Positions 58,776 through 61,821 of a stretch of DNA of 64,000 bases are shown here, in pieces (position 1 is the first letter of the stretch; each line of letters opens with the position of its first letter). The stretch spans positions 1 to 64,000 of the forward strand of contig NZ_JBCAUS010000005.1 in assembly GCF_038432375.1 (NCBI RefSeq), given 5' to 3'. The position numbers and the translations under genes are program-made. Origin of the DNA: Methanococcoides sp. LMO-2. GTDB lineage: Archaea; Halobacteriota; Methanosarcinia; Methanosarcinales; Methanosarcinaceae. The notes under the pieces are model-generated. The model was not told the DNA's origin. It worked only from the letters and a program-made list of their open reading frames with translations, and did no database searches.

Positions 58776-60251
58776 TTAGAACGCAGGCTCCCTTTCAACT
58801 TCAGGAGGCTTTGCTCCCGGTATGGTCACACCGATCGTCTTTGTTGTGAAATCTGTTGGCGGATCTGTCTCTGCAGGATCGGAATCGTAGCCAATAACCT
58901 CCCAGTCGATCGCTGTTGCAGTTGAACCGTGGCAATCAGCACACTCCAATGGGTCTGCCATTCCAACCTCTGAACCTGCGATATTGTGACTCAGCCTGTA
59001 ATGAAGGTCAACTGTCCTGAGAACAGCATTCGGATAATCAGCTTCACCATCAGCATTTCCATCATAGCTTCTCATTTCTTCTACAGTAACAGCACCGTCC
59101 TGATCTGCATCAGCGGCTTTCACGTGTGCCACAGGTATCGCATCACCAGATTCCTTGCTGGTGTCTGGTGCTTCTGCGACCTCAGGGTTTACACCTTCGT
59201 CCCACCAGATACCTGTCACAACATTGAAAGGTGCGAGTTTCACGTCCGGATCATCCTTCTCATCAGGGATCCTCAGTTCATCTTCTCCGACACCATTGGA
59301 CCATGCGACCACAGGTTTGATCGTGTCCATCTTGTAGGAATCAACACGTTCGCCGTTTGACCAATCAAAGGACTCAAGGGTAGTTCCAGCTGGAAGTTCT
59401 CCTCCCGGAAGTGCAGGAATGTGACATGTTTCACATTCTACGGCCTCAAGGTGAGCATCTGCAATAGGTCCATGTGAAATACCTGCGTGGCATTCTGCAT
59501 CATCGCAGCTGCGAGTTTCAGCTTCCAGTTCATGGATATCTTCAACATCTGACTTTACGAAAAGACTTGAATGCGATATCTCATGACACTCAGCACATTC
59601 AACCTCAGCATGTACATCGAACTCCTCATAATCAGGTGCAGACCACATTACAGCTGTTGTAGGAACATTTGCCACATGGCAGTTATCAGAACATGATTCC
59701 TTCGTAGGTGCACCGTTTACGGTGTCGTGGAACAATAGTAACAGTGGAAGTGGAGTAACAGCATTTGAGAAATAGGTGAATTTCCTGATATTATCTTTCT
59801 GCACTGCAGCATTTGCATCGATCATTGCTGCTTCATTTGCATTCTCAAAGTCCCCTTCGCTGAACTTCATAGCACGTGCTTCAAAATCATACATGCCATA
59901 TTGCTCATGGCAGACCATACAATCCACATCTACGCCATACTCTTCTAGTGCTCCTCCACCCGGATGATAAGCACCATAGAGTTCGAGCCACTCTTCTTCT
60001 CCTTCTGTCTCAATGTCAAAGTTTGTAAGTGGATCCCATTCATCAATATCCCTCTGAATATGGGTATTGGTATCCACATGATCAGCTACTGTGAAGTGAC
60101 ATCCTCCACAACTTGAGTCCGACCATTCCCCTTCGGTCATATAGTGATGAGCGATCGCGTCATTGCCACTGTAACCCAGGCTAGCGAAAACTCCTGCAAA
60201 TGCGAAGATGAAAATGGCGGCTGCCAGTAATATAACTTCTAATCTTGCCAT
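58776..60251 (-). CDS. mmcA: Multiheme c-type cytochrome MmcA
   Basis: Membrane-tethered extracytoplasmic cytochrome of the Rnf complex; in M. acetivorans it reduces methanophenazine or external acceptors. The 491-aa protein has an N-terminal signal/anchor (residues 5-24) and seven heme motifs: five CXXCH (48, 111, 219, 273, 437), one CX3CH (187-192) and one CX4CH (249-255). Residues 381-392 (DADQDGAVTVEE) form a canonical EF-hand loop and 397-405 a second partial one. ATG with GAGGGG. First rnf-associated gene after the 139-aa unknown. Confidence 0.93.
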   Translation of the reverse strand: MARLEVILLAAAIFIFAFAGVFASLGYSGNDAIAHHYMTEGEWSDSSCGGCHFTVADHVDTNTHIQRDIDEWDPLTNFDIETEGEEEWLELYGAYHPGGGALEEYGVDVDCMVCHEQYGMYDFEARAMKFSEGDFENANEAAMIDANAAVQKDNIRKFTYFSNAVTPLPLLLLFHDTVNGAPTKESCSDNCHVANVPTTAVMWSAPDYEEFDVHAEVECAECHEISHSSLFVKSDVEDIHELEAETRSCDDAECHAGISHGPIADAHLEAVECETCHIPALPGGELPAGTTLESFDWSNGERVDSYKMDTIKPVVAWSNGVGEDELRIPDEKDDPDVKLAPFNVVTGIWWDEGVNPEVAEAPDTSKESGDAIPVAHVKAADADQDGAVTVEEMRSYDGNADGEADYPNAVLRTVDLHYRLSHNIAGSEVGMADPLECADCHGSTATAIDWEVIGYDSDPAETDPPTDFTTKTIGVTIPGAKPPEVEREPAF

Positions 60252-60262
60252 CTGATCCCCTC

Positions 60263-60664
60263 TTAATCCTCTGCTACGTCCTCCAATTCCTTGAGGACAA
60301 CACCGATAATTGTAGTAAGATGCTGTTCTTCCAGAACGGTCATGTTATCAGATACATATTTGTGAAGGTCGAAGCTCTTGGGTATTTCCCTTACATTAAA
60401 ATCAAAGACCTTGTCCAGAAGACCTTTCTTTGGCGTTATGCCCAAAAAATTAACATCAAGGCGTTTTCCGACCTTGTGTGCTTTCACTTCGATCTTATCC
60501 AGCGGAGAACCGGATTTTACATAGATCATGTGATGATCGGCACCAAATTGTTTTTCGATGCCTTTCCAACCATATTCCTCTATGATCTGATGAATTGCAA
60601 CGGCGAGATACTTATCCTTCCCTGTATTTCCTCCCGACGCAATTCCTGCACTAGAATCACTCAT
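60263..60664 (-). CDS. Unknown protein heading the Rnf operon
   Basis: A 133-aa soluble protein, not recognised. It has a Gly/Ser-rich N-terminus (SDSSAGIASGGNTG) and then alpha/beta structure (YLAVAIHQIIEEYGW, HHMIYVKSGSPLDKIEVKAHKVG, LLDKVFDFNVREIP). ATG at 60664 has AGGATGTG upstream. It lies 11 nt before mmcA and directly after the operon promoter, so it is made with the Rnf complex. No signal peptide or cofactor motif is visible, so a cytosolic accessory role is likely. Confidence 0.65.
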   Translation of the reverse strand: MSDSSAGIASGGNTGKDKYLAVAIHQIIEEYGWKGIEKQFGADHHMIYVKSGSPLDKIEVKAHKVGKRLDVNFLGITPKKGLLDKVFDFNVREIPKSFDLHKYVSDNMTVLEEQHLTTIIGVVLKELEDVAED

Positions 60665-60705
60665 TCTTACACATCCTATCATGAATAATAATTAACATCC
60701 GTCGA

Positions 60706-60789: not shown

Positions 60790-61821
60790 ATGGACAAAAA
60801 AACAGTTCTATTGCTAGTATTAATCGTTATAGTTACCGTTTCATTCAGCGCATTATATGAAGAGCAGGAGAGCAGTTTTCCAATACAGAATGAAATATTT
60901 AACACAGATTCCCGCAGCATAATGGATACAACAGTTACAATTTCGATCTATGATTCTGACGGGGAACACGCGGGACAGACCATAGACAAGGCTTTTGAAA
61001 GAGTTGAGAACGTCGATGGCATCATGAGCACTTACAAGAATGAAAGCCAGGCAAGTGCCCTTAATGAACATTCAAAGCTTGAAGGAGCTTCACCTGACCT
61101 GATCTATGTTGTTGAGCGCTCACTATATTATTCAGAGATAAGCAATGGTGCATTTGATATCACGGTCATGCCGATACTCGATCTCTGGGCAAGCAAGTTC
61201 AGCCCCGGTGGAACATACAAGCCGCCCACACAGGAAGAGATAGACACCACCCTTGAGCTTGTTGATTACAGAATGATCACCATCGAAGGTGACAATATAT
61301 ACATGGAACCAGGCATGAAGATCGCCCTTGGAGGAATAGCAAAAGGATATGCTGTTGACCAGGCCATAGAAGTGTTGCTCTCAGAAGGCATAACCAGTTG
61401 TTTTGTTGATGCCGGAGGAGACGGAAGGTACATTGGCACAAAACCAGACGGAAGCCAGTGGACAGTTGGACTCCAGAATCCCGACAAGCAGGGAGATTTC
61501 ATCACCGTCATGAAGCTTGAAGATATGGCCGTTGCAACAAGCGGCAACTATGAACGCTATTTCAGTGATGCTGCAAAGGTCTCACACATTTCCGACCCAA
61601 GGACCGGTTACTCAGTTAAAGAACTTATCAGTGCAACGGTAATTGCAGGAAGCACAATGGATGCCGATGCCCTTGCAACCACCGTATTCGTCCTCGGAGA
61701 AGAGGAAGGCATGCAGCTGATCGAATCCCTTGAAGGAGTGGAATGCCTGATCATCACATCGGACAAAAGGATACTTCGCTCAGAAGGCTTTGCAGAATAC
61801 GAAACAATAATTGAACAATAA
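60790..61821 (+). CDS. apbE: FAD:protein FMN transferase ApbE
   Basis: Attaches FMN from FAD to threonine residues of target proteins outside the membrane. The 343-aa protein has an N-terminal signal anchor (residues 5-22) and ApbE motifs: MDTTVTISIYD near 41, IALGGIAKGYAVDQAIEVL near 178, DAGGDGRYIG near 210 and the TTVFVLGEEEGM segment. The target is probably RnfG, encoded in the divergent operon, whose DSITGAT motif matches the family consensus. Confidence 0.94.
   Translation: MDKKTVLLLVLIVIVTVSFSALYEEQESSFPIQNEIFNTDSRSIMDTTVTISIYDSDGEHAGQTIDKAFERVENVDGIMSTYKNESQASALNEHSKLEGASPDLIYVVERSLYYSEISNGAFDITVMPILDLWASKFSPGGTYKPPTQEEIDTTLELVDYRMITIEGDNIYMEPGMKIALGGIAKGYAVDQAIEVLLSEGITSCFVDAGGDGRYIGTKPDGSQWTVGLQNPDKQGDFITVMKLEDMAVATSGNYERYFSDAAKVSHISDPRTGYSVKELISATVIAGSTMDADALATTVFVLGEEEGMQLIESLEGVECLIITSDKRILRSEGFAEYETIIEQ

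Follow-up and report, generated by a model that had tools for sequence, protein, structure and literature searches.

A conserved EF-hand-type loop points to a probable structural calcium site in the Rnf-associated multiheme cytochrome MmcA

We analyzed a stretch of 64,000 nucleotides from Methanococcoides sp. LMO-2 (contig NZ_JBCAUS010000005.1, positions 1 to 64,000; hereafter the window). Its minus strand encodes MmcA, a cytochrome c with seven heme motifs that is the first gene of the Rnf operon (Table 1). The protein matches the NCBIfam model TIGR04314 (methano7heme, equivalent to MmcA) over residues 3-491, scoring 830 bits where the cut-off is 250. The genes rnfC, rnfD and rnfG follow mmcA in that order, with rnfA further along, and MmcA orthologues are in Rnf operons wherever the related loci extend far enough to check. 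In our tree, the closest kin of the window protein are from Methanococcoides. The heme motifs comprise five CXXCH, one CX3CH and one CX4CH, and the same set has been published for MmcA of Methanosarcina acetivorans (PMC11024163). The hydrophobic N-terminal helix, a signal or anchor, places MmcA outside the cytoplasm; signal processing has been described for the M. acetivorans protein (PMC11024163). Directly upstream of mmcA, a 139-residue protein (60263-60682, minus strand) without a Pfam or NCBIfam match is kept in this position in many related loci. An ApbE family flavin transferase (60790-61821, plus strand; 290 bits) is divergent from the Rnf operon and probably flavinylates RnfG/RnfD.

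Table 1. Features of mmcA and of the encoded protein, in window coordinates
Feature	Residues	Coordinates	Strand	Basis
mmcA, seven-heme cytochrome c, first Rnf-operon gene	491 aa	58776..60251	-	TIGR04314 and operon context
N-terminal hydrophobic helix (signal/anchor)	1-27	60171..60251	-	sequence; model helix 2-27
Heme motif 1, CGGCH	48-52	60096..60110	-	
Heme motif 2, CMVCH	111-115	59907..59921	-	
Heme motif 3, CSDNCH (CX3CH)	187-192	59676..59693	-	
Heme motif 4, CAECH	219-223	59583..59597	-	
Heme motif 5, CDDAECH (CX4CH)	249-255	59487..59507	-	
Heme motif 6, CETCH	273-277	59421..59435	-	
Entering helix	374-380	59112..59132	-	AlphaFold2, pLDDT about 90 or above
Loop 1, predicted EF-type Ca2+ loop, DADQDGAVTVEE	381-392	59076..59111	-	PS00018; ligand set complete in 48/52 MmcA
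Exiting helix	390-395	59067..59084	-	AlphaFold2, pLDDT about 90 or above
Loop 2, DGNADGEAD (DxDxDGxxD), probable second Ca2+ loop	397-405	59037..59063	-	full pattern in 38/52
Beta strand joining the loops to H422	410-419	58995..59024	-	AlphaFold2
H422, invariant in MmcA and OTR, probable distal heme ligand	422	58986..58988	-	invariant in all three alignments
Heme motif 7, CADCH	437-441	58929..58943	-	

The MmcA sample combined 60 relatives, named genomes (58 loci), and order- and phylum-level searches. Full-length matches were found only within the order, and beyond it these searches returned one weak partial match. The alignment used below (A3) holds 52 MmcA proteins with identities to the window protein as low as 36%. 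We considered whether the window protein could instead be an octaheme tetrathionate reductase (OTR) and rejected this identity: the OTR model TIGR04315 scored 42 bits against a cut-off of 375, and there are seven heme motifs, not eight. Heme 2 of OTR and its Lys ligand are missing from MmcA (PMC11024163). MmcA is not invariably heptaheme. Counting CX2-4CH motifs in 57 orthologous sequences gave seven motifs in 29 of them, eight in 19 (L066, L068, L084, L092, L098 and L102 among these), nine in six of ANME-2 type (including L107, L109, L111 and L117), and six in three fragments. The eighth motif is often an additional CXXCH about 18 residues past motif 7, and the additional motifs of the nine-motif proteins lie within the N-terminal half. 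The two atypical motifs are unequally stable: motif 3 is CX2CH rather than CX3CH in 5 of the 52 aligned proteins (L062 and four from Methanolobus), and CX2CH replaces CX4CH at motif 5 in 12 of the 52, including ANME-2 and ANME-3-like loci.

The original prediction placed a canonical 12-residue EF-hand loop at residues 381-392, between the sixth and seventh heme motifs (273-277 and 437-441), and our analysis bears out both points. The segment has Asp at positions 1, 3 and 5, Gly at 6, a hydrophobic residue at 8 and Glu at 12. It fits the PROSITE pattern PS00018 and is the sole match to that pattern in six frames of the whole 64 kb window. Of the shuffled versions of the acidic MmcA sequence, 0.57% contained PS00018 and 0.035% the strict pattern D.D.DG.[LIVM]...E. 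The Pfam EF-hand_5 and EF-hand_1 models (PF13202, PF00036) matched residues 378-395 of the window protein at 15-20.2 bits, under the gathering score of 25.9, and the equivalent segment of one homologue (L070) reached 26.0 bits, over that score. EF-hand_1 matched 44 of the 52 proteins at E ≤ 0.1. Genome-wide, loop 1 was the top EF-hand_5 match (E 0.005), and there was one further weak match (E 0.41).

The complete ligand set (D1, D/N/S3, D/N5 and E12) is present in 48 of the 52 proteins. Among these carriers, D1, D/N/S3, D/N5, V8 and E12 were each found in 48 out of 48, and G6 in 47. The conserved loop positions are 1, 3, 5, 6, 8, 9 and 12, with swaps that EF-hands tolerate (position 3 may be N or S, position 5 may be N and position 9 may be S), and positions 2, 4, 7, 10 and 11 are free to vary across the 52-protein alignment. 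The mean entropy in the carriers is 0.39 bits at ligand and structural positions versus 2.36 bits elsewhere in the loop. We slid a 12-residue mask along MmcA and computed the entropy contrast between mask and non-mask positions at 455 placements. The contrast peaks at residue 381 (1.98 bits, rank 1 of 455; the runner-up has 1.26), which indicates the signature of a metal loop and not a generally conserved segment. Loop 1 spans genera of the Methanosarcinaceae, extends to ANME-2 and ANME-3-like loci, and is present in all 30 loci from the order- and phylum-level searches (L119-L148). A loop that varied within the genus would have spoken against the original prediction; we found the opposite, with loop 1 kept across genera and into ANME lineages. 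A related locus that we take to be from M. acetivorans carries DANGDGEVTVEE as its loop 1 and has both loops intact. This family-wide conservation makes a chance origin of loop 1 untenable.

Four of the 52 proteins lack loop 1, and all four are from ANME-2 loci (L109, L111, L115 and L117). They have Gly at position 1, Ser, Ile or Thr at 3, Ile or Ser at 6 and a charged or polar residue at 8, and in three of the four position 12 is Asn or Arg. In the tree, they form one clade (support 100/99) nested among carriers, which points to a single joint loss of the ligands and not to an alignment error. Because mmcA is still followed by rnfC, rnfD and rnfG in these loci, loop 1 is not strictly required. 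The clade conserves DFNYDK[IT]PDYP at the place of the second loop described below. Its sister loci L107 and L114 show the reverse, with loop 1 kept and loop 2 lost. Loss of loop 1 showed no link with the number of hemes: nine motifs occur both in L107 and L114, which keep loop 1, and in the loop-less clade. The OTR of S. oneidensis (1SP3) has no such loop, and neither do 11 archaeal OTR-like paralogues (L031-L041). This distribution ties loop 1 to the MmcA branch, as a lineage-specific structural gain that sets MmcA apart from its OTR relatives.

A second loop, DGNADGEADYPN (59028-59063, minus strand), starts at residue 397. It had been described in the original prediction as a second, partial loop. 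The loop is real, but the calcium-blade spacing of DxDxDGxxD fits it better than a degenerate EF-hand does: two residues separate the DG from the next acidic ligand, as in integrin-like calcium blades and unlike EF-hands (PMC3123361). The pattern is degenerate in 14 of the 52 proteins, including L103 (near-complete deletion), L107 and L114. FG-GAP and TSP_3 models matched a few members below threshold. Judged by its sequence, loop 2 is probably a second calcium loop with calcium-blade spacing, less constrained than loop 1. A canonical EF-hand pair was rejected, as loop 2 starts five residues after the end of loop 1, has another ligand spacing and is dispensable. Both loops contain the Dx[DN]xDG core and a later acidic ligand, in a protein with an N-terminal signal or anchor helix. 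The Dx[DN]xDG motif has a strong bias to secreted and surface proteins, where it often stabilizes structure or folding (PMC3123361).

Structure prediction had been proposed as a check, and AlphaFold2 run with the family alignment gave a confident helix-loop-helix at loop 1. The mean pLDDT was 74.8 overall and 92-97 over residues 381-410, and the helices that flank the loop are shorter than usual EF-hand helices. Segment 364-424 modelled alone retained the helix-loop-helix (pLDDT about 90-93). A Foldseek search with the isolated segment returned 11 matches, mostly EF-hand proteins, including EhCaBP1, EhCaBP5, CDPK2, soybean calmodulin, NCS-1 and a calcineurin fusion. These superposed at 1.2-2.3 Å over 17-25 residues with E-values of at least 3.9, so the matches are consistent with an EF-hand and are not proof of one. 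With VIA-align, the loop segment reached no Z of 2 or above. Searched against the PDB, the family profile for this segment matched an Entamoeba calcium-binding protein (E 1e-9, summed over four repeats) and calmodulin (E about 1e-3), and a phmmer search of the PDB with the window protein alone found nothing. A joint MmcA and OTR profile found 1SP3 in the PDB. OTR was also the only real match in fold searches with the whole model (VIA Z 14.4 over 327 residues against 1SP3), which makes these searches uninformative on loop 1 itself.

Besides the seven histidines of the CXnCH motifs, MmcA conserves seven others (residues 36, 64, 96, 214, 260, 267 and 422). Given this count and its invariance, H422 is probably a distal heme ligand. 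It lies three residues past the end of the strand that follows the two loops.

Family conservation, the ligand contrast, the joint loss in one clade, profile likeness and the predicted helix-loop-helix together make the reading of loop 1 as a calcium-binding EF-type loop well supported. Our preferred explanation, to which we give a probability of roughly 0.78, is that MmcA carries a conserved structural EF-hand-type calcium site. Outside the cytoplasm, D381, D383, D385 and E392 would grip a Ca2+ ion through their side chains, and residue 387 (by its backbone) and the position 9 residue or a water would be further ligands. The ion would be seated between the short entering and exiting helices. 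A second ion would probably occupy loop 2 in most species. Both ions would stiffen the helix-loop-helix-loop-strand module leading to strand 410-419 and H422, which would keep the heme chain folded and in register at its C-terminal end. We infer the metal binding, the identity of the ion and the effect on the hemes from the sequence, its conservation, the loss pattern and the predicted fold. In simulations of another heme conduit, MtrCAB, bound Ca2+ holds heme-heme distances (PMC12076491). Against the site, MmcA that was purified and studied by spectroscopy and voltammetry in buffers without added Ca2+ was still redox-active, although these buffers contained no chelator; the cell suspensions of the same study contained 2 mM CaCl2 (PMC11024163).

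Stabilization is the likely role of the predicted site, and this part of what had been proposed for calcium stands. A further-reaching version would make Ca2+ a working part of the wire: occupancy of loops 1 and 2 would determine where the C-terminal heme or hemes sit, their potential, or the docking to Rnf, electron export in methanogens and ANME would depend measurably on Ca2+, and one ANME-2 clade would have replaced the device. We regard this version as doubtful. The original prediction had also suggested that calcium might tie electron export to the ionic environment. Such regulation, in which changes in environmental Ca2+ would alter occupancy and so gate or tune electron flow through MmcA, seems improbable to us. 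Extracellular Ca2+ in sea water is millimolar, which would keep an EF-type site filled. Loop 1 is kept alike in marine, hypersaline and other members, every carrier has E12, the Ca2+-type ligand, and there is no sign of a conformational switch. With an extracytoplasmic protein, plentiful Ca2+, an invariant E12 and no visible switch, the proposed tie is unsupported, although EF-type loops are able to switch conformation, loop 1 adjoins strand 410-419 and H422 in the model, and Ca2+ changed the spacing between hemes in the MtrCAB simulations (PMC12076491). A similarly low probability attaches to an interface role, with the loops as a dockerin-like, Ca2+-dependent docking surface for Rnf subunits, a second MmcA or a surface partner. 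MmcA must touch Rnf, with which it is encoded (PMC11024163), and Dockerin_1 matched 16 of the 52 segments below threshold; however, a second dockerin-type segment was not seen, and in many of the proteins loop 2 is degenerate or has been deleted. MmcA as a dockerin proper was rejected, since that identity needs two duplicated F-hand segments and none is duplicated here.

We consider it very unlikely that loop 1 binds no metal and is an acidic loop on the protein surface whose likeness to an EF-hand arose by chance or through halophilic composition. Although MmcA is very acidic and the Pfam EF-hand scores of the window protein are sub-threshold, shuffles seldom yield the loop pattern, the ligand positions stay invariant while the residues around them vary freely (rank 1 among 455 placements), and the ligands were lost jointly in one clade. 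Halophilic acidity alone was also rejected as the source of loop 1. The least probable reading is that another ion, Mg2+, Mn2+ or a lanthanide, occupies loop 1 in vivo. Glu at position 12 of an EF-hand favours seven-coordinate Ca2+. All 48 carriers have this Glu, which argues for the larger, seven-coordinate Ca2+ over these ions, although crystals do show EF-type loops with other metals (PMC3123361).

MmcA is the electron path of Methanosarcina in methanogenesis and to Fe(III), and ANME have relatives of it. A conserved Ca2+ site implies that redox titrations, structures and mutants of MmcA should control for Ca2+, and the genetic system of M. acetivorans offers an immediate way to test the predicted site. 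The original prediction knew of no description of the loop in MmcA, and we likewise found none in the literature accessible to our search. Searches for EF-hands together with multiheme cytochromes or for MA0658 found no paper in a scope that lay mostly outside subscription literature. Judged by titles and abstracts, papers on MmcA with Rnf and calcium, or on Methanosarcina with EF-hands, were not about Ca2+ binding by MmcA. PROSITE or InterPro database annotation may already flag loop 1.

Calcium in multiheme cytochromes is known already, and it is the predicted site in the MmcA family that appears to be new. NrfA and octaheme nitrite reductase, and MtrB/MtrC, have Ca2+ on multiheme cytochromes or their complexes, where it is needed for activity or was simulated to hold heme spacing. 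The NrfA ion is at the active-site heme and the MtrB ion on the porin, and the accessible parts of these sources describe neither as an EF-type loop (PMC12285233, PMC12076491). The M. acetivorans MmcA (MA0658; TIGR04314), of the same family and operon position and with both loops intact, has been compared with OTR in a study that leaves calcium and EF-hands unmentioned (PMC11024163). OTR (1SP3; TIGR04315) shares its fold and invariant histidines with MmcA, and only MmcA has the loop. With EF-hands, such as those of calmodulin and Entamoeba CaBP1, MmcA has in common the 12-residue loop, the same ligands and the flanking helices; it differs in having a single such loop with short helices and no canonical pair, inside a multiheme cytochrome. 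The Dx[DN]xDG loops of dockerins, integrin-type calcium blades, thrombospondin type 3 repeats and archaeal subtilisin have the same six-residue core, extracellular setting and later acidic ligand, and the survey of their structural contexts names no cytochrome or heme protein (PMC3123361). Loop 2 of MmcA has the two-residue gap of the calcium blades, and what distinguishes MmcA from other proteins with Dx[DN]xDG loops is the presence of two unlike spacings side by side.
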